From Sabellastarte sp. h YS-2021 (taxonomy: Eukaryota > Annelida > Polychaeta > Sabellida > Sabellidae), in contig OZ024936.1 of assembly GCA_964017235.1 (NCBI GenBank), positions 32,324,040 through 32,388,039 of the forward strand: a stretch of DNA of 64,000 nucleotides, written 5' to 3'. The notes beneath the pieces are model-generated. The model did no database searches and was not told where the DNA came from. It worked only from the letters and a program-made list of their open reading frames with translations. The position numbers and the translations under genes were made by a program. This document shows, in pieces, positions 12,201 through 62,705 of the stretch (position 1 is the first letter of the stretch; each line of letters starts with the position of its first letter).

Positions 12201-15200
12201 GGACATTTGTGACAGGCTTGACAGAAGGCAACTGATCCACACAGAAATTTCTGATTCAAAGCATAACAATTTATATTGAAAGTCTTTAGCCTAGTCATTC
12301 TGAATGATCTTCAGCTGACTCAACATATTGTCCTGCATTATGGTGAGGCATATTTATGATGACTCTCTGGCACATTTCTCTCATTTCCTGAGGGTTTCTT
12401 TGGAGATTGGATGGGAGGTCAGTGGGCTGGATGAAGACAAATCTGAAGCTTGACCAACTGATTGTACCAGAAGGACACATCATTTGAAGGGTTCTGGATG
12501 TCAGAGTGGATACATCGGTACTTCTGGAGTCATAGCCCTCCACTAGGGTAAGATTTTATCTTTCCAGTTTCTTACATATTTAATCGTCGGCTGGCAGATT
12601 AACAGAGATCTTTCCTTTAGGTTAAGGTCATGAACCGGCAAAGGGGTTGTTGTCTGCTGAAGAAGAGGCATTGTCAAAGTAGGAGACGTGATGCAAACCA
12701 ATGTAAAATTTGATCCCCTTGCCTGTTTCCCTGTATGATTGCTCTTCAGCTAGTAGTTGGGCAGCCTCACTCGTAACAATGGACCATTGTCATATAGTTC
12801 ACACTCTTCTTCTGCCAGCCTGTGTGGTGAAACAGAGTGCATATTGCCTTCAAAATCAGAGGACGGTTCTTGCTGTGGAGATCTGGCAAACGACGTACTT
12901 GGTACAGACTTCTTCTGCAGAGCAGGAGCCTCGTCAGTGTCGGCCTGGTTGGTCAGTGTGATCGGTGGAATAAATGGCTTTTCAGATACTGCACTATCTG
13001 GTGGTGGGTGAACTGGAGCTGACAACAGAGGGATTAGAAATAATCTTCTTATTAGAAATCTTATCTTTCTTAATCTTGTCGGTGGGGGTAGATAGCTGGG
13101 CATGTTGTTCAGTAGTTAGGACACTGCAAAACTGGCAACCTTGCTTCAAAACGCAAATGTCTTTGTCCCTGCATCATGCACAATGAGCATGTTGGCAAAA
13201 CCCAGCCTTTCAAAAGGCCACACACACCCCGTTTTTGTCATGAGTTTTTATAGAAGTATTTTATGAAATAAGTTTGAATCTTGAGAGTTCCTCAAAACAA
13301 GTCTTGACTGCATATGTGCCAAATGCAAAAGGAAACAGTGCATGCCACCTAGCAAATGGTGGCAACCTAGCCGGCCTTGCCAGTGGAAGCACCGGTCCGG
13401 GATGTCTTTTTCTGAGGTTTGGCGGGGCCGGCTTATGCCAGCAAAATAGCTAAATGTCCATATATTTTGATACATCCATGTATTAAGGCAATGAAATTTT
13501 ACCTGCAGACAAAAGCAGGAATCTTACCAGAATTTTTCAGCCACATATCATAAAAGTAGTACCAGCTGTAAACAGACCCTGACTGTATTGTATCCATGCT
13601 CTCCATGTCTTTGTGAAGTTGTACTAGGTTCAGAAAAGCTTCGTAATAATCTATCTTACCTAAAATTAAACAGATTGTTTGGACAACATACATTGTTTTG
13701 GTTGTTAATAATTCCACTTCATACATACTGAATTTATTCATATGCATTTTTCAAAAGGGGGGGGGGGGTGACTATTTACAGATAAAAAAATCAACTCTCG
13801 AGTCCATTGGCAATGGGCAATAATGGACACTGACAGCCTTGATCTTGATTGCCAGCATGTATTATGGCAAGAGAGCTTAAAATATACCAATATACTTAAA
13901 TCTGAAGAAATTACTCAGTTTTATCTTATATTTTTTGCAGATTTAAATGCATCTGTGATCGAAACTGCCATGTTTTGTTCTGATTTTCTTTACTTCTTGT
14001 AAGCGGTATTCTACTGGCGGAAGTACTTAAACGCATCTTTTTTTGGAATCCCAGAATCAAAAAGCTCTTGAGAGGGATGTAAAACCCTGAAATATGAACT
14101 TTGCAAAGGTAGACAGAAGGAGGGGCAATTAAAATGGAGGGGGCATTTGTATATGGATAAATACAGTATTCTAAAGTCAAATATAAAGTAAAAAAATAAC
14201 ATCGGAGATACCCGTACCCCACAGCCCAGGGAAATAGTTGTTAACGTCATGAGATATAGAAAAAATGAAACAATACAAACATTAGGACACTTTCAGAGTA
14301 GTACCAGTTAAGTACAGGTCCAAATAATGTTTAAGTGGAGAAAATAATGTTCAAGAGTGAGAAAATGTATGTAAAGATAACACATGATTCAAGATAACAG
14401 ACAGCATTAAGCAGTAAACTAAAAATTATGAAGCTATAAAATTTATTAACTGACGTATAGCTGTCAATGGAAATATCACAATTAAGTATACATATATATA
14501 ATGATAATAGTTACAGCAATCCATTTATCTTTGTCATAAGAGAAAATTGTCTCAAACATGGTACTTTAGCAGAACCCAGGTTTAAGGTCACACTATGATT
14601 TAACCAACCTACACTCCCCATCCAATGACTCAATCGAGAATCAACTTCCTACACCTTACAGTTTCTGAGATACTGACCCACCAGATTTATAAAGGTCAAG
14701 GTCACTACAGCAAGGTCAAAGGTTAATTCAAGGTTACACCACGATGTTGTACACCTACACCCCCAACTAATGTCCCTACCAAGTATCAACGTCCTACACC
14801 TTACGGTTTTTGAGACATAGCCAGGACAACATTTTCAAACTCAAGGTCGCTACGCCAAGGTCAAAGGTCAAATCAAGGTCACACTATGACTTTGCACACC
14901 TACAACCCACAATTGATGTCCCTGCCAAGTATCAACTTTCTACACCTTACAGTTTCTGAGATACAGCCCAGACAAACTTTTCCCAGCGCCCACCTGCCCA
15001 TCCGGACGCCATGGGTGAAAGGGCTGTCAAGTCAAAACTACTATTACTACTTTCTGGATTGCACAGCTATTGAGCCTTATGTAGAGTGGAAGACTAGTGT
15101 TACTTTACCTAGATACACAGTAGCAGGTATTGAAGATGAATCGCAGAAGAATTCATCATCTGCTTGAAGGTAATCATACAAGTAAGTATCACTGGGAATG

Positions 15201-18200
15201 AACCAGTCTGGATCAAAATCCTGCTTTAACTGAGTCACTCCATACACTGCTGGGCCAAAGAGTGCTGCAGCCAAGAGGATTACAAGGACCTGCAATGAAA
15301 TAGTATTGCTACGACTCTCTAGCTAACCCCAAGAAGATTGGGGTTCGATTATTGGTGGAATCATGGAAATTAAGGTACAATACACACATAATGAACTTTG
15401 ACAGCAGTTGGCAAGGTAAACAGGCTGGCATCCTCTTCAGGGAAGTGGAAATCTTGTAGAGTAAGAAATCTAAAATTCGCCACATATCTGAAATTCGCCA
15501 CATGTCAAAATACTAATAAAATAAATGAATTGTGGTGAGATTTGTTGACTGTAGAGTAAATTAAGGCTTTTTGAACTGAAAAATACCAATTTCTAGACAA
15601 AAACATCATTTTCTTCATAAAATTAACTAAGGTTTTAGAGGTGGCGAATTTTAGATTCCTGGCGAATTTTAGATTTCTTACTCTAAATGGACTCATGCTA
15701 TAGAAATGAAAAATAAGCTTTACCCTTACTCAGTGATACTACAGGAAGAGAAGACATATATTTTCCATGAGAGTCCAAGATTGCCACAAAATAAAAGTCT
15801 TTAAAAGTTGGCCATTTGCCAAAAAAATCGCAAAAAGGCCAAAATTGACTGGGCCCGAGATTTCCATGTTAAAAATTTTGCTGTCAAGTTTCACTGCTGC
15901 AGTTACAACAGTATTTCCCAAACAGTGCTACCAAGCAAGTCCCTGAGAAAAAAATAGGTCAAAGGTCAAACACACATTTACTGTATCAGTATACACATTG
16001 TATATGAATAAAAAAATTTGAATGAAATCTACCCAAACAGTTTTAGAGTTAGTCAAAAATGAAAAGGCAGGAGATACATCGAAGTAAATTTTCCTCCATT
16101 ATATAAACAAGTGTCCTACAGGTGCACAATGTTTAAAAAGCACCGTTTTGAACAGTTATCATATCAAGGTAGAGATGGAGTTCTTAGTGGCATCACTGGT
16201 AACACAGTTGGCAAATGATCATCTGGAACTTGCTACTGAGCTTATGCGTTTAGCATCTAAAATTATGGTAAATACTCATGATCCGCCACAATAAGATCGT
16301 AGCGATTTAAAATGAACATAAAAACCTCTAACGGTAGTTTTAATACTACATACATGATATACAACAGTACCCCAGTAATCAGACCTTCTCACATAAATAA
16401 CCGACAATCGAACCACATTTAGCCAAATATCAAAGGGCTAGAAAAATAGTTGTAAGTACCCAGAAATTTGCAAATTTAATAAGTAAATTAAATTTTTATA
16501 AGTTAATACCCTATCCAATGGACAACTGCTTTACCGGTCGACGCGACCGGTCCCGCCAAACACCAGAAAAAGACGTCCTGTATATAATACCGGCAGGACC
16601 GGTCAGTAGTGTGCATTCGCTAGGTGGCGCATCATACTTGCTTCCTGTCCAGACAGAGTGACGTCAGTTCATCTTTTTCGTTGTCTAAACAGATTTAGAC
16701 CCCTAGTAAGCTGGTAGCGGGGTCGGTTGGGAGGGCCTTGCCTGTCCATTGGATAGGGTATTAACTTATAAAAATTTAATTTACTTATTAAATTTGCAAT
16801 TTTATGGCGTTAATACATCCTATCCAATGGACAATTGCTGAATAACTACCGCTTGGTCGGAGGGTAAGTTACTAGGGACTTGTGTGAACTCATAAAAGAT
16901 AAGAAAATTCCCTCTGGCCTAGGTTAACTTTAAGTCAGTAAACCTGTAGGCCTATGGTCGGATACCAGTGCCCGGTTGCCGGGGCGTATACCGACGTTTC
17001 CCCCCCCCCCCTTTTAACAGACCTGCTCTGAGGTAGGGGAAGAGAGGGATGAGTTCGGTCCCAGAAGGCAATAACCTCCCAAAGGAAGGCATGTAGTTAG
17101 TTCCAAGAACTATTAACGCTACATATATACAAATCTCAGTATATATATGGGCCAATTGTGGATCTGCTGAGCAGCCACTACTGGGCCCAATTGAAGGAGC
17201 TCTGAACCAGCCCAAGCCACATCCTTCAAATAGAACTGTGTGAAGGTGTTATATTACTTCCAGTGGCTGGCTGAAAAATTGTTCTAAGGAGACTCCCAAC
17301 TGGAATGCCTTAGAAGCAGCAAGGGGCCCTGACAACATGAGGTTTAACCTGATGTAGGGCGAGGGCCGCTTGACCCGAGAGCTCATAACCTAGGATCACA
17401 GTTGCTTGATCCATGAGGAGATAGTGGCAGGACAGAGGTCTTGTCAAAAACCTTTCTAAAGGGTGACAGACTAACTCATTGTTCTGTTTGAGATCCTGTC
17501 CCAATAAGAAGCACAGTGCTCTGGACACAGGACCTATCAGAATCGAGGGACTTATCCAGAGTTGGGGCCAGGGTTGGTATAATCACTGGGGCCACACTGT
17601 CCGGACTCTCCTTGGCCAGCTGTTTCTTGGAAAAGAAGGCTGGGTGCTGGGTACAAAGACACCTTTGACCAGTCTAACTGGTGCCTGATGTGTTTCTTTT
17701 ACCAAGAAAGAATCTCACTCCTGTGTTGCCAGAACCCAGGGTCAAGAGGAAAACAGTCTTGAAGGTCAATGCTTCAAAGAGGCCTCTTTAAGGGGTTCCA
17801 ATGGAGCCCTGCCAATTGGTGCAACACCAGGGGAAGGTTCCAGGAGGGGATGCCCCTCCGACCCTTAGGTCTGTCTCTGCAAGTTGTCCAAGAGACGAGC
17901 AAGATTCTCATTGTGCTGACATTGGTGACATACCCAGTTGTCAGCAATGACTGATCTGGTTGATCCTCTTTGAGCCTCAATTCCTACTGCCACTGCTTTA
18001 GAGAAGCCCTGCTCCTTGATTGCTGAGGCTCTAGGAGCCATGCATGCAGATCTAATTTTGACAGATTCCTGTGAGGAGTCTGACTAGATGGTTGAGAGAG
18101 CAGGTTGGACAGGTACCAAGGAATCTGACCTGACATGACCCAGAGATTTGGAGCAGTCAGTGTGATTCCCCTGCATGGGTAGTGCTGCAACGTCTCCACC

Positions 18201-21200: not shown

Positions 21201-24200
21201 ACAGTCCCACCAGTGGAAAGGCCTCTGGTGAAGGTTCCAGTATCAACACACGGCTGATCACTGGAACCACTGAAGGGGGGTTTCTTGACAGCTTCACAGG
21301 AACATGACTGGAACCGGTACCCTAACAGTCCCACCAGTGGAAAGGCCTCTGGTGGAGGTTCCAGGATCAAACAGGGCTTGTCACTGACAACCACTGAAGG
21401 GGTTTCTTCACAGGAACAGCACCCACCAGTAGTCTGTACAGACTGGAACCGGTAAAACTCATCACTAGTGCTCCCCACCGGTAGTCTGACCAGAACTGGT
21501 ACCGGTAAAAACTCATCACTTCTTGTCAGCTGAACCAGCCACGCCTGGGGATTTGCTTGCCGGTAGTTGTCTTGAGATCTGTGAAGTCACATGACCGGCA
21601 CCGGCAAAAAAACGCAGAGTTTAATGACCATTTGTCATCTAACTTCTTCAGGCCAACAGACGAGTTGCTGGATTTCTTCTTGACAGTTAAAATGTGGGTG
21701 TTGAGTAGTAAAAGCTCGTCTTTTCTTCTAAAACTTCTGTTGAAAACATGATTCCTCCATTGTTGAATGCGTATCACGTGACCAGGTACCTGTCACGTGA
21801 TAAGCATAAGCTGGAAGTGATGACGTCAGACGATGCATTCTTCTTTCCTTCTAATATTTTCTCGTCGACATACACGCAGTGTTACTCGACTAAGTAAGAA
21901 GTAAATGGAGGGTGAGTCATGGACATAAAGACTTCTGATCAGAAGAAGAATGCTGCAGGGACGACACACGAGCTCTCACCCACGACTTCGTCTCGACGAC
22001 AAGTACACAGAAATTCTTCAAAACTGGTTATAAAGTGCTGGATAATGCCTCGTTTAATCCTGGAGAGGCCATGATATGTAAGTAACACAATATATATATT
22101 GTCAGATGAAATTAAGCTTTAAATTCGTAGAATAAACCGCGTTTCCTTCAAACTTGGAGATAATTTCAAAACGCGTCTGCACACTACACGCGCCAAACGA
22201 AAAAGATGAACTGACGTCACTCTGTCTGGACAGGAAGCAAGTATGATGCGCCACCTAGCGAATGCACACGCACTGACCGGTCCTGCCGGTATTATATACA
22301 GGACGTCTTTTTCTGGCGTTTGGCGGGACCGGTCGCGTCGACCGGTAAAGCAATTGTCCATTGGATAGGATGTATTAACGCAATAAAATTGTAAATTCAT
22401 ACATTTCAATGAAAAGGAGCCCTCTAATTTCACAACATTTACTTCTTAAAAAATCCACTTTAGAGACTTCCCCTGAGTTCATTATCAACATTATTAATAA
22501 TCAACAAGGAGGTATATATAATTGGTGGTGCATGTTTGTTTGCAAAATAACTCAAAAAGTTGCCATGGATTTCAATGAAAGTTTCAAGATATGTCAACAT
22601 AGGCACAAGGAACAGATGATTAAAAAATACCTGGATGCAGATGGTTATCCGTATCACTACCAAAATTTAAAGGATTTTTTATCATTACACTCATAAGCCA
22701 CAGTGAAAGTATTGGGCCTTGTGGGAGGTCAGCTCTCTCTGAGTGTTTTTCTGGTCATTACTACTATGAGAAATTTTAAGTATTTGTCTTATTTGTTTTT
22801 TATCCTTTTATTAAAAGAATCACTGTTGGATGTTGGCAACAGCTTGTCCCAAATTGCAACCCGAAACAAGTAAACCCCTAGTAAACATCAATCAGAAAGA
22901 GGATACAGATCTCTATGGCAAATTAGGCATCGCATGCAAAGAGCTACTTTGTAGACACTGTGTACATACATTTATAAGGGTATGACTGTGTATGTCTTAA
23001 ACAACAAGGCCGAGAAGTCTTTTTGTCTACATGCATGAGCTGCACAGCCATCAGACACGAGTAGTGCACTAGAATTTATGAAAGTCTGGCGACAAGAATA
23101 AATTCCAATTCAGACACATACCACAGCTGATGCAGAACTCAGATGGTCACCCATCTCAGTACTAACATAGCCCATTGCCACTTCAGTGAAAAGACAGATA
23201 CTCATCACATTACGCCACAATTTATGAAAGTCTGGGGACAAAAAAAATTATTCCTAGAAGTGCGAGCCTCGCTAAAAGCTCGGCCTTAACAAATTAATAC
23301 AAGAGATCATTGTTACCTTGACTGGTATTTTGGTGAGAACTCCTCCAAGCATCCTGTCAAAAAATCCCTGAACAAACTCCCGCTGGCTGCATTTGTTGGG
23401 CTCGTAATTCTTGTGCACATAGCAACAGCAGCAGGCATTTCTATGGTTACTTGCCCTGCGGTTGTCGAGGGTAATACAGGCAACAAAGAAGGTGGCTTGG
23501 AGCAAGTAGATGGCAAAAATTCCAATACAGGCATAGATACAGAATGATCGCAAGGCAGGGATTTTCTAAAAAAAAAGTAGTTTTAATAAAACACATATTA
23601 CCAGAGTGGGATATTTTTTCTTAAATTTTAGCCCGACCAAAGACAAAACCATAATGAAAGAGGATGTAAATTTTTAGTCATTTATTTTCTGTTACTATTT
23701 TTATTTTTTATTTTCAAGTGATAAAATGTAAAAGACTTTAGTACATTTCATAAGGGGTTACTTTACAATTAATATACACCATTTTCGATGGATAATAGAT
23801 TACATATGTGAAGATTCATATAAGCCTTAAAATGTAAACACTGAAAGGGCACCAGTGACAATAAAGGCTTTAATTTTGATATTCTGATTCTTTACGGGTT
23901 TAAATGCAACAAAAACATGCAAAACCCCTGTAAAAGTACATTTCTGATGATGTACACAAGATATTTGTATGTTACATGGTTTTAGAAAACTTTTTTATGA
24001 ATTTATAAAACTAATTTTCCACAGTAAGCGGGAATAAAAAGTATTCCTCAGTCTTTATTTACCAGCACTTAGGTAAATTGAGTTACTGAGTCATACAACA
24101 AAGAAGTGAAGCACGTGTAGGAAATGTCAAAGACGTTTTATGGTTGATAATCTGATATGGCTGATTTATGGGCAAAATCATTTGAATTCTGGCTTTGGAT

Positions 24201-27200
24201 GATAAGGATTTCTATTTTCTGCACAGGCACAGATATAGTAAGACTATATGGGTTCAGTTTTGTAAAAGAAGATGAAAAACATTAATCAAAAACATAGTGC
24301 ATAGGTCACATCACAAAGGCTCAATACATAGTGATTGTCACATCGCACAGATAACACAGGTCACAAACATAAAAGATTCAACAAATTATATAGGTCAAAT
24401 CACACCAAATCAACACACTGTATCGGCTGTTTCTAAAGGAATTAACACACTGTTTTTGTAACATAAGAAAAATTCAACACTGTATATTGGTCACAAAGAT
24501 TCAAAACATTATACCAGTCACATCGCAAAGGTAAGTAGCAGGGTTGGAGAAAGGTTGCACATTTTAGTTGGTTAAGAGTTTAAACCCTTGCTGTATAGAC
24601 AATAATCAGTTGAATATTTGACAAATATCTGGACCAAATATTTGAATAATGATTTAGCTTTCAATTTTCAGCAATAAAATTAAAGGCATGGTTCTCAGTA
24701 CCATGGGGTGCCTATTTATTCAAAATAGCCACTTCAAATGTCAAACATAAACTAAACACAGAGGTTTAATAGTACTAGCTATGAGCTATATTAGCTAACG
24801 CCTAATACAAACTTATATAGGCTTACAGTTCTTACTCCAGTGTTACAAGCAACTTCAGAACAAGCTTGCAGTGGCCGCCACAATGCCATTAATACAAATT
24901 CAGCATAGGTTGACAGTGGTCGCCCCAATGTCAAATGCAAATGCAAGACAATCTTACAGTGATCGCCCCAATATCAACTGTAAATGCAACACAATTTTAC
25001 AGTGGTTGTCCCAATGTCAAATGTAAATGCAAGAGAATCTCATAGTGGTTGCCCCAATACCAAATGCAAATGCAAGACAATCTTACAGTGTTCACTCCAA
25101 TGCCAAATACAAATTTAACACATGTTTACAGTGGTCATCCCAATGCCAAAAGCAACTTCAAGGCTTATAGTGGTCACCCAAGTTTCAAATACAAATACAA
25201 CACAGGCTTACAGTGGTCGCCCCAATACCAAATGCCAGGATGTCGGTGAGTGATGTGACAGTGATGGAGACACCTGCATTCTTCATCATTTTACCAATAC
25301 GTTCAGGCATGGGCAGGTCCTCTGTCTGAGCTTTAGTCATCTCCCAAGCCTGAACGATCACAAACATGTCATCCACACCAATACCTGCAGGCATAAGGCA
25401 TAATTAATTCATTTTATGTGCAGTTGAACCCCCTATGCTTAGGATGCAATGGTTTACTGTAGGATGCAGCTGTTAGGTTTTACAAATGTTTCCATTACAT
25501 AACTGTTATTACAACTCAGATCTAAAACTCTGAATTTTTAAATAGTAAAGGGAAGGGAGGAAAAGGAAAGTTTCTTTGATCAGAACAAGTACTGCACTGA
25601 TAATACACAGGGATAATTAAATACTCGCCTGTCACATAATGATAACCCTAGTGATTTGAAACAGATTGTGTACAGATTTTAATATGGCTACGAAAAATAT
25701 GAAATTGGCTGGAGATAAATAGTGTATCTACCTTAAACAGTGTATATAGACTGCAAGTACATACAAGTGGAAATAGTGAAAATACTCGTCTGTCTTGTCA
25801 CCTGGTTAAACTGAAAAAGTCCCAATTTCAGGTGGCAGTCAACCAGCTTAACATTATACCTTCTGCTCTGACAACTTCATAGCACACTCAACAAATACCA
25901 AATAAAAGGGCGAAATTTGGGTCCAATTGCTTGCAAAACTCTAATAAGCTCAACATTTTTACAGCATTAACATGCATGTGAAATTACACCATTAGGCTAC
26001 TAAAGTAAATAGGTTTTGCTAAGCAACGATGACCAGCAGGTACAATAAAAAAACAGGTACATCAGGGCCAAAATATGGATAGAAAGGATCAACTAATAAC
26101 TAGTAATAAGGGAAATACTGAAGGGAGAGCAGAGGGAAAGCAAGGAAATCTATCAACACAAAGATAAGCAACATTTACAGGGGTGCTAAATTAAAAAGAG
26201 ACTCTTTATGTAACTGATGATATGTATTAAGGCTGTGACTTTGTTAGAAAAGTGACACCAGGTATTCATCTTGAAAGTACCAATCCAAATTCAAGTAACC
26301 ACAGTGGAAGAAGTATCTTAGAAGCAAACATGGCAGATGATGTAAATAGAATGTTGTGAAACATAATGTTAAATATCTGTATAAATAAGGAAAACTAGAA
26401 ATAGGCCGCCCTGTTGATAGTAGATGCGAATAGAAACAGGATAGCATAGAAGAACACACATTATCATGTGTAATGTCCACCCATGAACCTTTTGCCCAAA
26501 TTGTACAGCAGTCTTACAAGACCCTGTTTCATTTGTAAAATATATCAATGATGCTTAAATATTTGTTAGTGTAGATGTAAATTATTTCAGCTTCATGCCT
26601 TTTTGCATTGGTTGGGTTGAAAATTTTGACGAAATCACTCTATCTTGCACGGTTAAGAAGATAGAAGCAAATTCCTGTTTTTCTATTTTTGGCAAAAATT
26701 TGAAAATTCAAAATGGCCGCCATTTTTTGGAAAAGGAAATTTTTTTGAAAATTGCCAAGAGTACATTTCTTAGATACCCTATGGGTCGAAAATTTCAACG
26801 AAATAACTCTATTTTGCACGGTTAAGGCCAGTTTGTGTTTTTCCATTTTGGGCAAAAATTCGAAAATTCAAAATGGCTGCCATTTTTGGGGAGGGGAAAT
26901 TTTTTTGAAAATTGCAAAGATTACATTTCTTAGATACCCTGTGGGTCAAAAATTTCGACGAAATTGCTCTATCTCGCATGATTAAGGAGATAGAAGCAAA
27001 TTTGTGTTTTGCCATTTTTTTGGCAAAAATTCGAAAATTCAAAATTGTCGCAATTTTTGGGGAGGGGAAAATTTTTTGAAAATTGCAAAGATTGCATTCC
27101 TTAGATAACCTGTGGGTCGAAAATTTCGACGAAATCGCTCTATCTCGCACGGTAAAGGAGATAGAAGCAAATTTGTGTTTTGCATTTTTGGCAAAAATTC

Positions 27201-30200
27201 AAAAATTCAAAATGGCCGCCATTTTTGGGGAGGGGAAAATTCTTGGAAAATTGCATAGATTGGATTCCTTAGATACCCTGTGGGTCGAAAATTTCGACGA
27301 AATCGCTCTATCTCGCACGGTTAAGGAGATAGAAGCAAATTTGTGTTTTGCCAGTTTTGGCAAAAATTCGAAAATTCAAAATGGCCGCCATTTTTGGGGA
27401 GGGGAAAATTTTTGGAAAATTGCAAAGATTGCATTCCTTAGATACCCTGTGGGTCGAAAATTTCAACGAAATCGCTCTATCTCGCACGGTTATGGAGATA
27501 GAAGCAAATTTGTGTTTTGCCATTTTTGGCAAAAATTCGAAAATTCAAAATGGCCACCATTTTTGGGGAGGGGAAAATTGCAAAGATTGCATTCCTTAGA
27601 TACCCTGTGGGTCGAAAATTTCAACGAAATCGCTCTATCTCGCACGGTTATGGAGATAGAAGCAAATTTGTGTTTTGCATTTTTGGCAAAAATTCGAAAA
27701 TTCAAAATGGCCGCCATTTTTGGGGAGGGGAAAATTTTTGGAAAATTGCATAGATTGCATTCCTTACATACCCTGTGGGTCGAAAATTTCTACGAAATCG
27801 CTCTATCTCGCACGGTTAAGGAGATAGAAGCAAATTTGTGTTTTGCCATTTTTGGCAAAAATTCGAAAATTCAAAATGGCCGCCATTTTTGGGGAGGGGA
27901 AAATTTTTTGAAAATTGCAAAGATTGCACTCCTTAGATACCCTGTGGGTCGAAAATTTCGACGAAATCGCTCTATCTCGCACGGTTAAGGAGATAGAAGC
28001 AAATTTGTGTTTTACCATTTTTGGCAAAAATTCGAAAATTAAAAATGGCCGCCATTTTTGGGGAGGGGAAAATTTTTGGAAAAATTGCAAAGATTAGATA
28101 CCCTGTGGGTGGAAAATTTCGACGAAATCACTCTATCTCGCACGGTTAAGGAGATAGAAGCAAATTTGTGTTTTGCCATTTTTGGTAAAAATTCGAAAAT
28201 TCAAAATGGCCGCCATTTTTGGGGAGGGGAAAATTTTTGGAAAATTGCAAAGATTAGATACCCTATGGGTGGAAAATTTCGACGAAATCACTCTATCTCG
28301 CACGGTTAAGGAGATAGAAGCAAATTTGTGTTTTGCCATTTTTGGTAAAAATTCGAAAATTCAAAATGGCCGCCATTTTTGGGGAGGGGAAAATTTTTTA
28401 AAAATTACCAAGAGTACAATGCTTAGATACCCTGTGGGTCGAAAATTTCGACGAAATCGCTCTATCTCGCACGGTTAAGGAGATAGAAGCAAATTTGTGT
28501 TTTGCCAGTTTTGGCAAAAATTCGAAAATTCAAAATGGCCGCCATTTTTGGGGAGGGGAAAATTTTTGGAAAATTGCAAAGATTAGATACCCTGTGGGTG
28601 GAAAATTTCGACGAAATCACTCTATCTCGCACGGTTAAGGAGATAGAAGCAAATTTGTGTTTTCCCAGTTTGGGCAAAAATTCGAAAATTCAAAATGGCC
28701 GCCATTTTTGGGGAGGGGAAAATTTTTGGAAAATTGCAAGAGTACACTCCTTAGATACCCTGTGGGTCGAAAATTTTGCCGAAATCGCTCTATCTCGCAC
28801 GGTTAAGGAGATAGAAGCAAATTTGTGTTTTGCCATTTTTGGCAAAAATTCGAAAATTCAAAATGGCCGCCATTTTTGGGGAGGGGAAAATTTTTTGAAA
28901 ATTACCAAGAGTACAATGCTCAGATACCCTGTGGGTCGAAAATTTCGACGAAATCGCTCTATCTCGCACGGTTAAGGAGATAGAAGCAAATTTGTGTTTT
29001 GCCAGTTTTGGCAAAAATTCGAAAATTCAAAATGGCGGCCATTTTTGGGGAGGGGAAAATTTTTGGAAAATTGCAAAGATTGCACTCCTTAGATACCCTG
29101 TGGATCGAAAATTTCGACGAAATCGCTCTATCTCGCACGGTTAAGGAGATAGAAGCAAATTTGTGTTTTGCCATTTTTGGCAAAATTCGAAAATTCAAAA
29201 TGGCCGCCACTTTTGGGGAGGGGAAAATGTTTTGGAAATTGGAAAGATTAGACTCCTTAGATACCCTGTGGGTCGAAAATTTCGACGAAATCGCTCTATC
29301 TCGCACGGTTAAGGAGATAGAAGCAAATTTGTGTTTTGCCATTTTTGGCAAAAATTAAAAAATTAAAAATGGCCGCCATTTTTGGGGAGGGGAAAATTTT
29401 GGGAAAATTGCATATATTGCATTCCTTAGATACCCTGTAGGTCAAAAATTCTGTCGAAATCGCTCTATCTCTTACGGTTTCTGAGATATTAGCAAATTAC
29501 TCAAAAGTAGTACTGAAAATACACAATGAAGTACCTAAATGGCTATTACTCATGTACTGACAAAGCTATCAGTCCCAAATGCAATACCAAGCGAGCTATG
29601 GACATAACAATCTTGTATTCAAAATTGTAGTAAAATATCTTTAATTATTTTGGCTTAAATGCACGGAAACCAATGGGTACTGAAAATAGCTGTACTTAAG
29701 TATTACTCAGTAAGCAAAAGAGGTACAACAGCCAAAAGCAATCCCAAACAAGCTACTGACCCAATAAGCCTGCATACCAAATTTGGTGACAATAGCTCTA
29801 ATACTTTTCCTTTAAATGAGCGGAAACCATGCGTGACGCCGGACATCGGACGCCGGACGCCGGACATCGGACATCGGACAATGGACATCGGACGGCGCAA
29901 AAAGCAAAAATAATATATCCACCCCCCAGGGGGGTGGACATAATTAAGTGAAACACTGATGCCAGTTAGAGAAATCTGACAGAATACTAAGGTATTTTCT
30001 TACACAAGTTTTTCATTGATTTACAGTATATTATCTAATGTATGTATTTTTTCAGTTACCCGCTTTGCCACTTTATAATCGGTTTCTTAAATGGATACAG
30101 TAAAGTGGTTCATCTTTAGTTTATAAATGTTACATCACTATTATTATTTCTGCACACACATGCTTAGATGGTGCCTAGAGATTGTCTGGCTACTTACCCA

Positions 30201-33200
30201 ACAATAGAAATGGTAGGATATTGTGTAAAGGTCCAAAGAAGACATCAGCATAAGAAGCAATTCCAATACTGACCAGTACAGAAAACCCTACACAGAGAAC
30301 TCCAGAGATGGCCAGAAAAACCTGAAGGTAGTAACACATCAAACAAACATTGAAAATGTCTTCCTTTAGGTTTGATGGAGACCAAAGTCTGTGACAGATA
30401 GCCATACTGTACTGTTTTGTACTAAAACCAACAATGTCTTTGCAAACTTCTGTTTAACTAAAATCACTTTCCATTTCCCTGAGGGGTTCAAGGGTATATA
30501 CTTATAAATATGAGCCATTTTGATCAAGCAGAAATAGTCTCTTCCAATCTAATGTTCCAAATGTAAACTCTGACAGAGAACACTAAACTTGACCAGTGTT
30601 TTCATTTGTAAAATGCAAAGTTTAACCATTTAGAAACAGTCTGGCTTAATCTAACAGAAGTACTCACTCTTACAAAGGACCACATTAAACTTACCTGCTG
30701 TATTTAATTATAAATGTATACAATTTATATAAATTAGAAACAGCCTTCTCTAATGTAACTCATCTGATGACGAACCATCTTGAACCTGCCCAGGGTACTT
30801 GTTGAATGCATACCCTTTATGCTAATTAGAAATTGTGATCCTAAATTTAGTGTATACATACAACACTCAGCGTCACCCACCCTCTGATAGAGCACACTGA
30901 ATTTGCCCAGTATATTAATTTCAAAATTTGAACTATTCAAAAATTAGTCCGTTCAAATCTAACTCACCCTGTGATGAACCATGTTGAACTTGCCCAATGC
31001 CAGGGCCACAAACACAACTATTAGAATAATCCCAGCAAACAGGAGGTTCAAGTCTCCAAATATTGCTCCACTTCCAACATCTTGCTGACTGTAACATAAA
31101 ATAATAAGAAATACTATGTGTAACATAATATTATTAATAACATTTTTTTCACATTCTTTATATATTGAAACTTTTATGAAACAAACACCATAGTTTCAGA
31201 AGAGCAAGAGAAACACTGCACTGCCAAAAATGAGATAAAACTAAGAAATAAAAACGAGATTTTCATTTTACTAATTTACCAAAAAAATTACTAAAATTTT
31301 GTGAGCATTTTTGCCTACATATTATTGATAACTGACAATAATTTTGATAAAACAAATATAAAATTGACAAGAACTTCATTAAGGCACTGGTATTAATACT
31401 TTTGTTCCACTTACACAAGTTATCATAAGAACAAGGAAATTTTTAATTTATCAGGCTACTACAACCAATCCTCTTGAAAACAGGTGACAAACCATGTGAT
31501 TTGTTACAAGTAAAACCATGACAACACAGCCATACAACATGCTCCCAATGTAACAGTAAGCCCCGACAAGTCATGTACAGTACAGTAGGGGAATCGTACA
31601 ACAAAACGTATTACTTGGCTCTATTTTTACAGAACAGTGTACCATAGGAAAACTTCCCAAATGACATATACACATAAAACATATCACAAAAGAAGATGAC
31701 AATATTATACAAAATGCATAGCAGGAGTATTATATTGTTAATCTTCATGAGTGATATATTTTTAAGTGCGAGCCTTGAAGAGCATGTGTTTCTGCAGATC
31801 ACTTTTTTTTTTTGGTCTCCGGACTTTGATGAAATTGACAACACCTGTGCATTCTGAATTTGCCTCTCTTGCTCTCCAATAGCTAAAAGGACACATGTCC
31901 TTTTGCCTTTTCCCCATACATATGTCCTTCTGAATTTGCCTCTCTTGCTCGCCAATGCCTAAAAGGCCACATGTCCTTTTGGCTTTTTACCATACATATG
32001 TCCTTCTGGCATTGGACTTTCATGAATTGTGGGGCAGCATGATGACTATTTGTCTGCTCACTGAAGTTAAATTACACAAGTCATGAGAGTTTTTCTTTTG
32101 TTAAAAGTGTCCAATATCTTTCACTATTGACCACTTTGTGATTTTGATCATATATATAGAAGTCTTTTTAGCACATTTCCAAAGAAACCCTTTTACATTT
32201 ATTTCAACTAAAATGATCATTAAAGCAAAAATACACACCAGAAATTGAGGAATGAATAGCATGGATGTTAAATAACATTTTTAAAATTAAAAATTGAGGG
32301 AGGGGTGTAATTCGAGACCTCGTAAATAGTCCATTTTTATCCAATAGTGGATACTTACTATATTTAGCATATAAAGTGATCATTAACCTATACTTAAGCA
32401 GCAATGGGCTACGTTAGTATTTGGATGGGTGACCATCTGGGGCCAGATTCATGAAAGGTTTTAAGTCTCAAATCTGAGATTTTTGTCTCAAATCTAAGCT
32501 TTATCTTAGATTTTTCTCAGATTTGAGACCTTTGCTCAGCTGGGATTCATGAAACATCTCAGGATGAGATTTGGCTCAGATTTGGTCTCAAATCTAAGAT
32601 TGCCTAGGGGGTGACTTAAGTTTTCATAAAATAGAGTATATGTAGTTACAAGTCTCGAAACAAAATGAAAATTGCCAAGTATGACATATTTATAAATTTT
32701 AACACAAAAACATGAATATATACTAAGACTTTGTATGAAAACAACAGTAAAACATTTACATTTAATTTAGTAATTTACATGAATGGTTTGCTTTGCAGTT
32801 TCAATCAGTTATTTTGTATGCCAGTACAAATTATAGTAAAAAGAAAACATTTTACTTGATAGAACATATTATAAAATGTGAGTACATGCAATACAGCTGT
32901 AAATATACATGTGTATGCTTTACACTGATCTCAACAGAATGTTACATCAATTTTGATTTGTCCACACTCAAAACATGTCTGAGATTTTGGTCTCAGCTAA
33001 GATCCCTTTCGTGAATCTCAACTTGAGCAGAATCTCATTCGAGACTAAACTCTCAAATTTGAGCAAAATCTCAGCTGAGATTTGGCTAAGACTTGAGACC
33101 TTTTGTGAATCCGGCCCCTGAGTTCTACACCAGCTGTGGGATGTGTCTCAGGTGGAATTTCTTTGTGTCCCCAGACTTTCGTAAAATTTAGTGCACTACT

Positions 33201-39200: not shown

Positions 39201-42200
39201 CGTATAAATCTACAGGTGGTCGGTCAGAGACGTCACTACCGGCCTCAGAACTGCAACTGGAAGCACTGTCCTTCCTGTGTCTGTGCAAATGAGGAGAGCC
39301 GGAGTCGGTAGGAACTGAAGATCTGGGTCGGTGAGAATGAGGTCGGTGATACATAAGCTGGCTAGTAGACTGATGCCTGGGGGCAGAGGAGTCGGTACCA
39401 GTGCACTCAGAAGTTTTGGGTCGGTGTCAGTCAGATGAAAGCTGGCTGGACGACTGATGCTTGACAGCAGAGGAGTCAGAACCAGTGCGCTTGGGTGAAG
39501 ATTCCTGTTGTTGAAGGTTGGATCTGAGCTGGCTGGAAGGCTGATGCAATGAAGCAGAGGAGCCCTGTCCAGTGCACTCTGAAGTAACAGTAGTCTCTTG
39601 AGCGAGCTGGCTGGCAGACTGATGCATAGTAGAGAAGTTCTGGCCAGTTGAAAGTCGGTTGAAAAAAAGGTTCAGTGTCTTTAGCAATGGTAGATGGAGG
39701 AGAATGGGTTGGTGTCACTATCACAGCAGATCAGAAGGTCAATTGGAAGGTCTTTGCTTCCAGGTAATTGAATCTGTCTGATCACGTCTGATCCAGTTCC
39801 TCCATTTTCTGGTCAGTAGCAGATTTTTCAACCATTTTCTTGGACTTAAAGGTAGATGGCTTGTCCATCTTAGGTTTCTTATCAGGAACAGAGTCCGGAA
39901 ATGGAAGAAATGGAAGCATTATCACTTACGGCTCCAATAACTGATATGGTAGCTGGGTCAACCAAAGTACCGTCCTTTGTAGGTGAAGACAGTTCTGCTT
40001 TCTTTGCATCCCTCTTTTCCTTTTTCAATTTGTAGGATGGAGTGGCGAGTTGTGCCTTCTGTTCAGTGGTCAATAATAAGCAGAACGTACATTCCTTAGC
40101 TGGAGTTTCAACACATGTGTCCTTCCCCTTTCCTTTCTCACAACAGAAGGAATGGCCATCAAAGCTAGCCATGACATGGCCGCAGTTACCCCTTTTTTGC
40201 CCTGGAGATGACATGATGTTCTATAATTACAGTAATATCCGTTTAAGTTTTTGAAATACTTAAAAACACAAAATTCTGGCAGTAAACTTCAAACAAGAGG
40301 AGAGTGCCCGTTCAGCTGACTGAGTGTATTTGATTTGTGAAGGTGATAATGAGAGGAAAGCATAATTATCAGGGAAAGTGCTGTACAGAAGTACAGTACA
40401 GTAAATGGTAATTGAACAGCATGTTTGAAAGAAATTCCGAAGCTGACAGAAGAAAAGGACCAAAAAGTTGTGCCCTGCAAATGGTATTATGAAGGAAAGT
40501 AACAAGGTAACTGTTTAAGTGTAAAAAGTAGGTTAAAACATATTTAAAGAAATACTGCAAATGCAATATCCTCGTTCCACCTTGAAGAAGGGGTCCAAGG
40601 TCAAATCCAACCACACAAAAAACATTCCCAGCCCATGATTTCCTATAGGTTGGTTACTATCCCAAACCTCTAGGACCAATAATAAGCGAGTTATAAGCAC
40701 TTTTAAGTTTGGCTGTCCTCATTTGACCTAGAAGGAGGGGTCCAAAGGTCAAATCTGACCACACCAAAAGAATCCCAGCCCATGATTTCCTATATGTTGG
40801 TTTACCATCCCAAACTTCTAGGACCATTAATAAGTGAGTTATAAGCACTTTTAAGTTTGGCTATCCTCGTTTGACCTTGAAGGCAGGGTCCAAGGTTAAA
40901 TCTGACCACACCAAAAGATTCACAGCCCATGATTTCCTATAGGATGGTTTACCATCCCAAACCTCTAGGACCAATAATAAGCAAGTTATAGGCACTTTTA
41001 AGTTTCGCTATCCTTGTTTGACCTTGAAGGAGGGGTCCAAGGTCAAATCCGACCACACCAAAAGAGTTATAAGGACTTTTAAGTTTGGCTATCCTCAATT
41101 GACCTTGAAGGAGGAGTCCAAGGTCAAATCTGACCACACCAAAAGAATCCCAGCCCATGATTTCCTATATGTTGGTTTACCATCCCAAACTTTTAGGACC
41201 ATTAATAAGCGAGTAAAAGGCACTTTTAAGTTTGGCTATCCTTGTTTGACCTTGAAGGCAGGGTCCAAGGTCAAATCCGACCACACCAAAAGATTCCCAG
41301 CCCATGATTTTCTATAGGTAGGTTTTCCATTCCAAACCTCTAGGACCAATAATAAGTGAGTTATAAGCACTTTTTACTTTGGGTATCCTCGTTTGACCTT
41401 GAAGGAGGGGTCCAAGGTCAAATCAACAGATTCCCAGCCCATGATTTCCTACATGTCTGTTTACCATCCCAAACCTCTAGGACCAATAATAAACGAGTTA
41501 TAAGCATTTTCAAGTTTGGCTATCCTTGTTTGACCTTGAAGGAGGGGTCAAAGATCAAATCTGACCACCAAACGATTCACAGCCCATGATTTCCTACAGG
41601 TTGGTTTACCATCCCAAACCTCTAGGACCAATAATAAGAGAGATATAGGCACTTTTCATGACTGACAAAGAAACACCTGTGGCAGCCATCTTGTTTTTCA
41701 AAATGAGGCCAAAAATATTCCCAGGCAACATGTTATGGTTATTAATATATCCTGCAAACTTGAGAAGGCTAGCTATAATATTATTTTTTCGTTAGAGCAG
41801 TAATGGCGAAATCTCTCTACACACTGCGGCTATCCAGTGGATACAATGATTTACTCAACAGTGAGAACCTGAAAGTAGCTATTGCTCAGCTATGCCATGA
41901 CATACAGGTCTGCAATTTCACTATGTTATAGCTGACCAAAAATTATGTGAATAACATATTTAAACAAAATACTCTAAATGCAATAGTTTTCAAGTTACAA
42001 CTGATTTACTCAATAGTGATAACCTCAAAGTAGCTATTACTCAGCTATGCAATGAGCTACATGTCTGAATTTTTACTATGTTATAGCTGACCCAAAAGTA
42101 GGTGAACAACATATTTAAGCAAAATACTGTAAATGCAATAGTTTTCAAGTTACAACTGATTTACTCAATAGTGAGAACCTGAAAATAGCTATTACTCAGC

Positions 42201-45200
42201 TATGCCATGAGTTGTAGGTCTGTAATTTTACTATGTTATAGCTGACCCAGAAGGAGGTGAACAACATATTTTAACAAAATACTCCAAATGCAATCTTTTT
42301 CAAGTTACAAATGATTTACTCAACAGTCAGTACCTGAAAATAGCTATTGCTCAGTTGTGCCATGAGCTACAGGTCTGTAATTTCACTATGTTATAGCTGA
42401 CCCAAAAGTATGTGAACAACATATTTTAACAAAATACTCCAAATGCAATATTTTTCAAGTTACAACTGATTTACTCAACAGGCAGTACCTGAAAATAGCT
42501 ATTGCTCAGTTGTGCCATGAGCTACAGGTCTGTAATTTCACTATGTTACAGCTGACCCAAAATTAGCTGAATAACATATGTACACAAATTTCTGTAAATG
42601 CAATAGTTTTCTAATTACAACTGATTTACTCAACAGTGAGAACTTCAAAGTACCTATTACTCAGCTATGCAATGAGCCACAGGTGTGGAACTTCACTATG
42701 TTATAGCTGATCCCAAAATAGGTGAATAACATATTGAAACAAAATACTCTAAATGCAATAATTTCCAAGTTATAAGCGATTTACTCAACAGTGATAACCT
42801 AAAAGTAGCTATTACTCAGCTATGCCATGAGCTACAGGTCTGAAATTTTACTATGTTATAGCTGACCCAAAAGTAGCTGAATAACATATTTATACGAAAT
42901 TCTCTAAATGCAATAGTTTTCCCAATTACAACTGATTTACTCAACAGTGAGAACTTCAAAGTACCTATAATTCAGCTATGCAATGAGCCACAGGTGTGGA
43001 ACTTCACTATGTTATAGCTGATCCCAAAATAGGTGAATAACATATTGAAATAAAATACTCTAAATGCAATAGTTTTCAAGTTATAAGTGATTTACTCAAC
43101 AGTGATAACCTAAAAGTAGCTATTACTCAGCTATGCCATGAGCTACAGGTCTGAAATTTTACTATGTTATAGCTGACCCAAAAGTAGCTGAATAACATAT
43201 TTATACGAAATTCTCTAAATGCAATAGTTTTCAAGTTACAAGTTATTTTACTCATGATGGAAGTTACTGAAAAGCCCAAAAGTAGCTATTACTCACTTAG
43301 CTATTGAGACAGACATCCAAGTTACCCACCATATTGTAGCTCTGAAAAAAGTAGCTGAATAACATATTTTAACAAAATGCTCTAAATGCAACACTTTTCA
43401 AGTTATAAGTGATTTAGTGCATGATTTCATGAATTTTAATGCATTAAAAATGATTAAAAAAAATTATTAAAAAAATAAGACAGATCCAGGTCTCACACTC
43501 ACACAAGAGAATCTACCTCTGGCCTAGTACATATATGCAAGATATGAGAGAAATCCCTGCAATAGTCACTGAGAAAATTGTGATACAGTGTTGAAATTTT
43601 CACACTTTTGGTGGGGGTACCTCCCTTGTAATGTCTCTAGCAAACAGACAAACAGACAGATTTACATGCCTTGAACAATTTTTCATCCTCGATAGATAAG
43701 GTATCTTTTAAAAAAACAGCATGTCTCTAGGCCTTGTAGTTTTGGAGGAGAAGATGTTCACGCGGACGCATACTCGTACGCCCATGCTGCAGAGTGACGA
43801 CATAATGTCAGCTGACTTGTCAGTCAGCTGACATAAAAACTCTGAAGCAAAATCTGTGTGCACTAGTTCATGCCAAACGAAAAAGATGCTATGACATCAC
43901 GCTGTCTAGACAGGAATGAAGTACGACACGCCATCTGGCGAGTGCACTAGTACTACGGACCGGCTGGCTGGTGGAAACACAGGATGTCTTTTTCTGACAT
44001 TTGGCGGGCCAGTCTGCGCTCACCGGATTAGCAATTATCCATTGGATAGGATGTATTAACGCAATAAAAACATATAATTCTAAGTATAATTGGACTTAAT
44101 AGTGCATAATCTCCTCTTTATAAGATGATTCTATGGTGCAACATATTAACCAAAACAGTCAGCCAATTTGAAAAATTTTGTTGTAATTTTAATTTTTATT
44201 AGATAAATACTTACCATATCCTGACCATAGCTATTTCTTGGTGCCATCCAACTCACTGGCCAACGTTGAGAAACGTTTTAAGCTACCTTAAGAAACCAGT
44301 GAGTGAGTGTGGACTAGGAAGCCCCCCAATGGTCATGTGACCACGCCAATAATAATTCATTGTTTTTGTTGCAAAGCTCACCCCTAGTAGTCTAGTACTG
44401 AATCCGCGGGGAGGCCGGGGGGGACTATCCTGGTCAGGAAATGGTAATTTATCTAATAAAAATTAAAATTACAACAAAATTTTTCAATTTTATTGCGAAA
44501 AATACACTTACCATTTCCTGACCATAGCTGAATGCAGCCTTCATGGATGGCGGGCAGTACTAGAAATACAGACCTAGTAACAACCACATGAACAGTAAAT
44601 AAAACACACCACAAGCATACAGGCATTCACACTCGGACTCACCTCAACCACGAGGAAGCCGGACTGCTGAGTAATGCTGTGGAAGTCATACTCCATATGT
44701 TGATACCGTTCACACCACCACCTCTAAACTCATGAAACAGCAAACTAACAGCTAACAAAACGGTCTATTTACAGCTGTACAAACACCTCAGAACACATCT
44801 GAAAACACAAGAAGCCAAATATAAGAACCTAAAACAAATACAGGCTTCAAAATAACATATTCCAAGTACAATGACATTATAATAACAAAATATTACTAAT
44901 GACATTACCTATTAACAATTTACAATATGTTGAGCCGCAACTACAGGCCCAATCTTCATAACATCACCATTATGCCAGCACAAATCTTTGAGGTAAAAAT
45001 TTGTGAAAGTAGAATGGCTTCTCCAAAAACAGCAAGTCATAATCTCATCCAAAGCAACTCCTCCCTTAAAAGCCAAAGAGGCAGCCAAAGCTCTAACCTC
45101 ATGTGCCTTGACTTGGGAAACAGTTTGAACTTCCTGATCAGACTTTTGATATGCCAAAATGATAGACTGCTTAATCCAAGATGATATAGTAGCCTTTGAA

Positions 45201-53150: not shown

Positions 53151-53164
53151 CATAAAAAAAACTT

Positions 53165-54153
53165 TAGCATGTGAAAGCTCTCCAAAATGTAGGTGAATGA
53201 GTTATTTGAGAAATACTGGCTATCTGCAATACTTTTAGAGATAATAGGCATTTACTCATTTTGAGTAGGTGAGTAAGTAGCTAGGGATCTGAAAATTCAC
53301 TAATTGAATGCTCTCCAAAATGTATATGAATAAGTTATTTGAGAAAAATTGGCTATCTGCAATACTTTTAGAGATATTTTGCATTTACTCATTTTGAGTA
53401 GGTGAGTAATTACCTACGGGTCTGGAACTTCACCATGTGAAAGCTCTCCCAAAAGTAGATGAATGAGTTATTTGATAAAAATTGGCTATCCGCAATACTT
53501 TTAGAGATAATTCGCATTTACTCATTTTGAGTAGGTCAATAATTAGCTAGGGATCTGAAACTTCACCAAGTAAAAGCTATCCCAAAAGTAGGTGAATGGG
53601 TTATTTGAGAAAAATTGGCTATCTGCAATACTTTTAGAGATAATTCGCATTTACTCATTTTGAGTAGGTGAGTAATTAGCTATGGGTCTGAAACTTCACA
53701 GAGTGAAAGCTCTCCCAAAAGTAGGCGAATGGGTTATTTGAGAAAAATTGGCTATCTGCAATACTTTTAGAGATAATTCGCATTTACTCATTTTGAGTAG
53801 GTGAATAATTAGCTATGGGTCTGAAACTTCACCATGTGAAAGCTCTTCCAAAAGTATTTGTTTATTTGTTTGTTTATTTGGGGTTTAACGTCGCTTTCAA
53901 CACTGTACAGGTCATATCACGACGGGTAGTTGGAAGGGCAGAGGAAACCAGTACATAGAGTTCGCTAGGGTTGTGTACTGTAAACTGCCGACCAACGGCA
54001 AGCAACTACCAGCTTTCCCACTTGAGCCCGTGCGGGAATCGAACCCCGGCCTCAGAGGTGGGAGGAGAGAGTGTTACCACTCTGCCACCGTGTCCCCTCT
54101 TCCAAAAGTATGTGAATGAGTTATTTGAGAAAAATTGGCTATCTGCAATACTT
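53165..54153 (+). repeat. 133 bp tandem repeat, first block (interrupted by SINE copy 2)
   Basis: About five units with GCAATACTTTTAGAGATAAT, tcgcatttactcattttgag, taggtgagtaattagctatg. The 53858-54096 SINE is inserted in one unit. Confidence 0.85.
53858..54096 (-). mobile_element. tRNA-derived SINE, copy 2
   Basis: Minus strand: gggacacggtggcagagtgg (A box), then ccggggttcgattcccgcac (B box GGTTCGATTCC), body with cggcagtttacagtacacaa, end gttgaaagcgacgttaaacc, ccaaataaacaaacaaa. A perfect 15 bp target duplication CTCTTCCAAAAGTAT occurs at 53843-53857 and 54097-54111. Inserted in a 133 bp repeat unit. Confidence 0.9.
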
Positions 54154-54154
54154 T

Positions 54155-54995
54155 TAAGCGATAAGCCACCTGCCAAATATGAAAGAAATGTGGAAAGAAA
54201 TGTGGACTGTAGGTCACTAACAAGCAATATTCCACATTTTAGACATTTTAGTCTACCACAGGCCTAATTTAGACATAAAGCCTACCAAAAAGATAGGGTG
54301 GCGAGTTCTCTAGCATACCAAGCCACCTGCCAAATATGAATGAAATCTGGAAAGAAATGTGGACTGTAGGTCGCTAACAAGCAATATTCCACATTTTAGA
54401 CATTTTTGTCTACCACAGGCCTAATTTATACATAAAGCCTACCAAAAAGATAGGGTGACGAGTTCTCAAGCATACCAAGCCACCTGCCAAATATGAATGA
54501 AATCTGGTAAGAAATGTGGACTGTAGGTCGCTAACAAGCAATATTCCACATTTTAGACATTTTTGTCTACCACAGGCCTAATTTAGACATAAAGCCTACC
54601 AAAAAGATAGGGTGGCGAGTTCTCTAGCATACCAAGCCACCTGCCAAATATGAATGAAATCTGGAAAGAAATGTGGACTGTAGGTCGCTAACAAGCAATA
54701 TTCCACATTTTAGACATTTTTGTCTACCACAGGCCTAATTTAGACATAAAGCCTACCAAAAAGATAGGGTGATGAGTTCTCAAGCATACCAAGCCACCTG
54801 CCAAATATGAATGAAATCTGGAAAGAAATGTGACTGTAGGTCGCTAACAAGCAATATTCCACATTTTAGACATTTTTGTCTACCACAGGCCTAATTTAGA
54901 CAAAAAAACCTACCAAAAAGATAGGTTGGCGAGTCCTCCACCATATCAAGCCACCTGCCAAATATGAAAGAAATGTGGAGTGTAGGTCGCTAACA
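54155..54995 (+). repeat. 157 bp tandem array (about 5-6 units)
   Basis: aagccacctgccaaatatga at 54320, 54477, 54634 gives a 157 bp period. Units include gtggactgtaggtcgctaac, aagcaatattccacatttta and cctaccaaaaagatagggtg. Confidence 0.9.
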
Positions 54996-60800: not shown

Positions 60801-62705
60801 ACTTCACCAAGTGAAAGTTCTCCCAAAAGTAGGTGAATGAGTTATTTGAGAAAAATTGGCTATCTGCAATACTTTTAGCGATAATTCACATTTACTCATT
60901 TTGAGTAGGTGAGTAATTAGCTATGGGTGTGAAACTTCACCAAGTGAAAGTTCTCCCAAAAGTAGGTGAATGAGTTGTTTGAGAAAAATTGGCCATCTGC
61001 AATACTTTTAGAGATAATTCGCATTTACTCAATTTCAGTAGGTGAGTAATTAGCTATGGGTCTGAAACTTCAGCATGTGAAAGCTCTTCCAAAAGTAGGT
61101 GAATGAGTTATTTGAGAAAAATTGGCCATCTGCAATACCTCCAGAGATAATTCGTATATACTCATTTTCAGTAGGCAAGTAATTAGCTATGGGTCTGAAA
61201 CTTCACTATGTGAAGGCCCTTGCAAAAGTAGGTGAATGAGTTATATGAGAAAAAATTGGCTATCTGCAATACTTTTCAGAGATAATTCGCATTTACTCAT
61301 TTTCAGTAGGTGAGTAATTAGCTATGGGTGTGAAACTTCACCAAGTGAAAGCTCTCCCAAAAGTAGGTAAATGAGTTATTTGAGAAAAATTGGCTATCTG
61401 CAATACTTTTAGCGATAATTTGCATTTACTCATTTTGAGTAGGTGAGTAATTAGCTATGAGTGTGAAACTGCACCAAGTGAAAGGTCTCCCAAAAGTAGG
61501 TAAATGAGTTATTTGAGAAAAATTGGCTATCTGCAATACTTTTAGCGATAATTTGCATTTACTCATTTTGAGTAGGTGAGTAATTAGCTATGAGTGTGAA
61601 ACTGCACCAAGTGAAAGGTCTCCCAAAAGCAGGTGAATGAGTTATTTGAGAAAAATTGGCTATCTGCAATACGTTTAGAGATAATTCGCATTTACTCATT
61701 TTGAGTAGGTGAGTAATTAGCTATGGCTGTGAAACTTCACCATGTGAAAGCTCTTCCAAAAGTAGGTGAATGAGTTATTTGAGAAAAATTGGCTATCTGC
61801 AATACTTTTAGCAATAATTCGCATTTACTCATTTTGAGTAGGAGAGTAATTAGCTATGGGTGTGAAACTTCACCAAGTGAAAGTTATCCCAAAAGTAGGT
61901 GAATGAGTTATTTGAGAAAAATTGGCTATCTGCAATACTTTTAGCGATAATTCCCATTTACTCATTTTGAGTAGGTGAGTAATTAGCTATGGGTGTGAAA
62001 CTTCACCAAGTGAAAGTTCTCCCAAAAGTAGGTGAATAAGTTATTTGAGAAAAATTGGCCATCTGCAATACTTTTAGAGATAATTCGCATTTACTCATTT
62101 TCAGTAGGTGAGTAATTAGCTATGGGTCTGAAACTTCAGCATGTGAAAGCTCTTCCAAAAGTAGGTGAACGAGTTATTTGAGAAAAATTGGCTATCTGCA
62201 ATACTTTTAGTGATAATTCGCATTTACTCATTTTCAGTAGGTGAGTAATTATCTATGGGTCTGAAACTTCACCATGTGAAAGCTCTCCCAAAAGTAGATG
62301 AAGGAGTTATTTGAGAAAAATTGGCTATCTGCAATACTTTTACAGATAATTCGCATTTACTCATTTTGAGTAGGTGAGTAATTAGCTATGGGTCCGAAAC
62401 TTCTTCAAGTGAAAGCTCTCCCAAAAGTAGGTGAATGAGTTATTTGAGAAAAATTGGCTATCTGCAATAGTTTTAGCGATACTTCGCATTTACTCATTTT
62501 GAGTAGGTGAGTAATTAGCTATGGGTCTGAAACTTCACCAAGTGAAAGCTCTCCCAAAAGTAGGTGAATGAGTTATTTGAGAAAAATTGGCTATCTGCAA
62601 TACTTTTAGAGATAATTCGCATTTACTCATTTTGAGTAGGTGAGTAATTAGCTATGGGTCTGAAACTTCACCAAGTGAAAGCTCTCCCAAAAGTAGGTGA
62701 ATGAC
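57842..62705 (+). repeat. 133 bp tandem repeat, main array (about 34 units) with higher-order structure
   Basis: Monomer: gtgaaagctctcccaaaagt, aggtgaatgagttatttgag, aaaaattggctatctgcaat, acttttagagataattcgca, tttactcattttgagtaggt, gagtaattagctatgggtct, gaaacttcaccaa (~133 bp). The variant cttcagcatg occurs at 60002, 61068 and 62134, exactly 1066 bp apart (8 monomers). A piggyBac MITE interrupts at 58848-59142. Confidence 0.92.
58848..59142. mobile_element. piggyBac-like MITE, copy 2 (295 bp)
   Basis: TTAA at 58844-58847 and 59143-59146. Ends CCCCTTAAAGACC and gtggtgaagaGG. About 90% similar to copy 1 by eye. Inserted in a 133 bp monomer (caatacttt/TTAA/gagataattcgc). Confidence 0.8.

Follow-up and report, generated by a model that had tools for sequence, protein, structure and literature searches.

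A minisatellite that repeats the adjacent exon-intron junction in an intron of a Patched-like gene from a sabellid annelid

We analyzed a 64,000-nt stretch of contig OZ024936.1 from the sabellid annelid Sabellastarte sp. h YS-2021 (assembly GCA_964017235.1; hereafter the window), in which an earlier note, made from the letters alone, had described a minisatellite built from a real exon/intron junction. Tandem Repeats Finder and an alignment of the repeat units bear this out: the array lies on the minus strand in an intron of a Patched-like gene, starts at the edge of the upstream exon (exon e0), and is made of 43-nt units that repeat the end of this exon and the beginning of the intron. We consider it very likely that the array is a "mirage"-type intronic minisatellite, the copies of which would be decaying by-products of local tandem duplication and not a splicing switch.

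Results

Tandem Repeats Finder reports a period of 43 nt and 8.8 copies for positions 24860-25235 (score 303). Unit alignment traces the array from the exon edge at 25235 to ∼24808 and defines ten units, namely the true junction, eight more that are clear, and one that has decayed (A1 to A10 in Table 1, each starting at the higher of its two coordinates). The earlier note had counted nine copies at ∼43 bp; nine units are indeed clear, but the successive spacings are 43, 39, 43, 43, 43, 43, 43, 45, and 43 nt, two of nine departing from 43, and a tenth, decayed unit is present. Each unit corresponds to the last 24 coding bases of exon e0, previously put at ∼20, and to 19 intronic bases including the donor. 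Of the 24 exonic positions, 16-23 agree in the eight clear copies and 13 in the decayed one, and identity of the copies to junction unit A1 ranges from 58 to 84%. Unit A10 is not significant by itself (nhmmer E 0.34). A period-129 row from Tandem Repeats Finder is no sign of a three-unit higher order, because identity at lag 3 (0.729) does not exceed that at lag 1 (0.747).

The host gene belongs to the Patched/SSD family and is Patched-like, with exon e0 encoding part of the sterol-sensing domain (58 amino acids; Pfam Patched 1.9e-19, Sterol-sensing 8.6e-15). When joined, four exons match chains of known structure, namely Patched-1 (best E 1.2e-23), NPC1-like, and NPC1. We set the boundaries of exon e0 by AG/GT and by the equal exon length in two paralogs; its 3' end reads GCATTTGGTATTGGGGCGACCACT and is followed by gtaagc. 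By homology, the true donor at 25211 appears to be in use.

The similarity between exon and array is well beyond chance. When the last 24 bases of exon e0 are compared with the 500 intronic bases that follow, the score is 22, and the best of 200 shuffles, which permute dinucleotide blocks and are therefore approximate, reaches 11. We scored 24 edges from 12 exons of three related genes in this way. Two of them beat all of their own shuffles, namely the exon e0 donor edge and its counterpart in a tandem paralog, termed B (score 17, shuffle maximum 13), and the acceptor edge of exon e+1 in a paralog on contig C3 ties with its shuffle maximum (10 and 10). A profile built from units A1-A9 and run on the window and the supplied loci (cut-off E <0.01) returned 16 matches, nine being the source units and the other seven lying in paralog B, with B's own junction among them; all remaining matches in this set have E 0.34 or worse. 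Genome searches, in which match counts are lower bounds, gave at least three matches at two places in the 1.79-Gb genome, both at the edge of exon e0 or its paralog equivalent.

A satellite unrelated to the gene, resembling the exon by chance or over a few bases, would suit a window that is rich in other satellites. The shared stretch nevertheless spans 24 nt of conserved coding sequence and outscores every shuffle, and the genome searches, with counts that are lower bounds, located copies only at the exon e0 edge of this gene and of a paralog. The refuting condition named in the earlier note, a satellite of this kind lying apart from the exon, therefore did not materialize within these searches. 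We reject this explanation, to which we give practically no credence, and on the same searches, with the same caveat, we also reject a dispersed satellite. At another locus (L012, positions 2005-2920), a 22/44-bp repeat array with many short palindromes lies downstream of a further Patched-family exon; judged by eye, it bears no resemblance to that exon. Ten Sugar_tr loci were run through Tandem Repeats Finder, and the one array region that was read (L045) lies past the stop codon of the open reading frame and is not an exon-edge repeat.

We compared the array with its paralogs. Tandem paralog B, 169 kb off (C14:32518570-32518743), encodes identical 58 amino acids and carries a decayed version of the array in the corresponding intron. 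The C3 paralog (69% amino acid identity over exon e0) agrees in intron, exon length, and phase, and its intron contains no array. Nine other Patched-like matches show no array in the printed flank or by the A1-A9 profile search; the comparison covered 12 matches, and the genome has more distant Patched-like ones besides. Among 14 units (A1-A9 and B2-B6), junction unit A1 is the most central, with a mean similarity of 0.76 versus 0.61-0.73 for the others, and the CpG of A1 appears as TG or CA in five of the eight clear window copies. The centrality of A1, the decay of its CpG in the copies, and the lack of an array in C3 make the exon edge the likely template.

Since the C3 paralog has the intron in the same phase and no array, the simplest view is that the intron came before the array. 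It has been proposed for amphioxus globins, in the excerpted text of one report (PMC3087553), that introns are gained through tandem duplication of splice boundaries, in which case the array would be a relic of the making of its intron and relatives lacking the array should lack the intron. C3, at the same intron position and phase, has the one without the other, and so we disfavor intron gain and regard it as very unlikely here, array loss in C3 being strictly conceivable.

Part of the array, in turn, probably predates the gene duplication. This is suggested by a match of window positions 25074-25150 (parts of A3 and A4) to the paralog B array (84.4% over 77 nt, E 1.7e-13) and by the second unit, which is short in both arrays (39 nt in the window, 40 nt in paralog B). 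Unit number and spacing are not the same in the two arrays, which belong to paralogs, not to alleles. Transfer by gene conversion could also account for their likeness.

Paralog B and the window differ at 4 of 173 bases in exon e0 and at 5 of 249 in exon e+1 (4-fold sites 2/30 and 1/30). They are more diverged at exon e-1 (4-fold sites 5/22) and at the exon at 13528-13659 (3/10), and the intron around exon e0 is barely alignable. The likeness of e0 and e+1 within diverged surroundings looks as if gene conversion had been limited to exons. Against a simple version of this, 4-fold changes are few (1/25) in the exon at 15109-15289, which nevertheless differs at 12 of 181 bases, and the start of the intron after e-1 aligns in part.

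The earlier note had read the array as a series of tandem decoy 5' splice sites, each copy bearing gtaag or a decayed version. GT is retained in six of the nine extra units and GTAAG in three (25086, 24957, and 24826); of the alternative donors it had named, 25086 has an intact GTAAG, 25129 a GT only, and 25168 neither. Selection for decoys should leave the donor bases more conserved than other bases of the unit, and in the window array they are not. In the eight clear copies GT survives 5 times (mean of other adjacent pairs, 4.85) and GTAAG twice (2.03); the exonic half is conserved at 0.729 and the intronic half at 0.694 (permutation p 0.32). The donor is broken or weakened in six of the nine extra copies. 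The interpretation as working decoy donors is therefore not supported.

Read-through of the true donor meets an in-frame TGA after eight codons (25187-25185), from intron base 25. This stop precedes the donor of every extra copy, so any downstream donor would truncate the protein. Paralog B lacks this early stop; there, 48 codons past the true donor are open. The stop also bears on the suggestion that inclusion of three units restores the frame and adds residues: three units do amount to 129 nt, and some copies encode AFGIGATT-like peptides, but the first unit already contains the TGA, the positions that would preserve the frame (+168, +297, and +342) read ATGAGA, GTCAAC, and GCAAGC, and there is no lag-3 excess. 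We reject in-frame inclusion on these grounds and see hardly any chance that it occurs.

The true donor is weak, forming five base pairs with U1 (-4.3 kcal/mol). The 5' end of U1 was verified in three U1 genes of the same genome, and in a sample of 2000 GT sites from the gene strand, 24.8% reach -4 kcal/mol. A tandem cluster of U1 snRNA genes at G000:C1:43709855-43769220 (spacing mostly ∼1.2-1.6 kb) is among the scored U1 matches, which number at least 42.

Several points weigh against the view that the copies are decaying by-products. It presumes, from sequence, correct splicing at the array locus. The copies at 25086, 24957, and 24826 match the true donor in U1 pairing; for this reason they are not plainly dead, and occasional unproductive splicing from them is possible. 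In paralog B, GT is retained in six of seven units by alignment (five of seven if adjacent) versus a mean of 3.44, a retention that 10% of the other pairs equal and that is not decisive, and GTAAG in two of seven versus 1.13. As to the age of the array, the outgroup argument consists of one paralog, C3, where loss of an older array would also fit, and the collinear unit order between the paralogs is only suggestive, 6.2% of 5040 orders scoring as well.

The equal U1 pairing could be taken further, with the weak true donor competing against the three copy donors of equal strength. Every downstream choice would include the TGA and lead to nonsense-mediated decay, and copy number would tune expression. 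The single stop common to all extensions, the persistence in both paralogs of arrays with some intact donors, and the above-average GT retention in paralog B accord with such an unproductive-splicing rheostat. It is at odds with the lack of preferential donor conservation in the window array, the prevalence of damaged donors, the absence of the early stop from paralog B, and the amphioxus mirages, which are reported in excerpts of two studies to leave splicing undisturbed (PMC3087553, PMC3902484). We judge it very improbable, as we do the specific proposal that copy-number-variable former donors 125, 254, and 385 nt downstream act as a rheostat through one early stop. If it were true, expansion or contraction of the minisatellite would change the amount of Patched-like protein.

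Table 1. Positions of the junction, the repeat units, and the neighboring exons (numbering of the window unless a contig is given)
Feature	Position	Strand	Remarks
Window within assembly	C14:32324040-32388039		Genome 1.79 Gb, 647 contigs
Previous exon e-1 (124 nt)	30198..30321	-	
Exon e0 (173 nt)	25212..25384	-	58 amino acids, ends AFGIGATT, phase 0 at 3' end
True 5' splice site GTAAGC	25206..25211	-	Exon side ACT; donor G at 25211
In-frame TGA	25185..25187	-	Met by any read-through of the true donor
Intron (1646 nt)	23566..25211	-	Array fills first ∼400 nt
Next exon e+1 (249 nt)	23317..23565	-	KIPALRSFCIY...
Unit A1	25193..25235	-	24 exonic nt + 19 intronic nt; likely source copy
Unit A2 (39 nt)	25154..25192	-	Donor position 25168, ATAAGC, no GT
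Unit A3	25111..25153	-	Donor position 25129, GTAAAC
Unit A4	25068..25110	-	Donor position 25086, GTAAGA; U1 pairing equals true donor's
Unit A5	25025..25067	-	Donor position 25043, ATGAGA, no GT; exonic part 23/24 identical
Unit A6	24982..25024	-	Donor position 25000, GTAAAA
Unit A7	24939..24981	-	Donor position 24957, GTAAGA; U1 pairing equals true donor's
Unit A8 (45 nt)	24894..24938	-	Donor position 24914, GTCAAC; exonic part 22/24
Unit A9	24851..24893	-	Donor position 24869, GCAAGC
Unit A10, decayed	24808..24850	-	Donor position 24826, GTAAGC; 13/24 + 12/19 to A1

The intron directly upstream of exon e0 contains a 169-bp satellite (∼17 copies, 26613-29498), and more satellites are found in the window at 41842-43254, 53159-53856, 54163-54979, and 57848-62708.

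Discussion

Mirages were described in amphioxus as minisatellite-like tandem duplications across an exon-intron boundary, at the loci Adh3, globins BflGb6 and BflGb9, TnC, and PGBD5 (PMC3087553, PMC3902484). In the excerpted text of these reports, the second of which adds PGBD5 and cites Adh and TnC, units measure 10-72 bp in Adh3 and are 81-100% alike in BflGb6, and many, not all, units keep splice signals. The array in the window fits this structural definition: its units span exon and intron over tens of bases, take in both sides of the real junction next to them (24 exonic + 19 intronic nt), and in part keep splice signals, with GT in six of nine extra units. Undisturbed regular splicing and length instability between haplotypes or cells would be further marks of a mirage. 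The annelid case differs in that it comes from another genome and a Patched-like gene, involves the donor side only, is present in two tandem paralogs, and has copies less similar to the junction unit than the BflGb6 units are to one another.

Human IFI6 (G1P3, 6-16) has a minisatellite at an exon edge. Its description is reportedly due to Turri et al. in 1995. Like the array studied here, it has repeat units that carry donors. According to the excerpt of a later source, two downstream units serve as splice donor sites (PMC4526556). Downstream units in IFI6 are thus said to be used and to give isoforms, whereas here the first unit contains an in-frame stop, and with TGA ahead of every downstream donor no isoform that continues into exon e+1 is expected. 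Intronic minisatellites that vary between tandem gene copies are also known from earthworm metallothionein genes, where coding regions are undiverged (PMC12783039). They resemble our case in differing between tandem copies; the excerpted text does not state that these repeats copy an exon edge (PMC12783039).

We propose that the array began with a short tandem duplication of 43 nt across the boundary between exon e0 and its intron. Likely breakpoints would be two heptamers that are almost identical, GCATTTG on the exon side and GTATTTG on the intron side. Slippage or unequal exchange may then have multiplied the unit within the intron, probably in part before the tandem duplication of the gene. 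The earlier note had offered, among other readings, replication slippage with the exon edge as its anchor, and of its options this one fits best. The exonic copy would be kept by coding selection, and the intronic copies, donor sites included, would drift. Donor 25211 would normally be used and the array removed together with the intron; if a surviving copy donor were used now and then, the message would be truncated and probably degraded. The array is most likely neutral.

In our literature searches, minisatellites that span an exon-intron boundary were represented by cases from lancelets and humans, and the present array appears to widen this range. Events probably ran from the intron to the array and on to the gene duplication, by which time at least some of the array was in place. 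The locus may offer a natural test of how the spliceosome chooses among neighboring donors that pair equally well with U1 and are flanked by similar exonic sequence.
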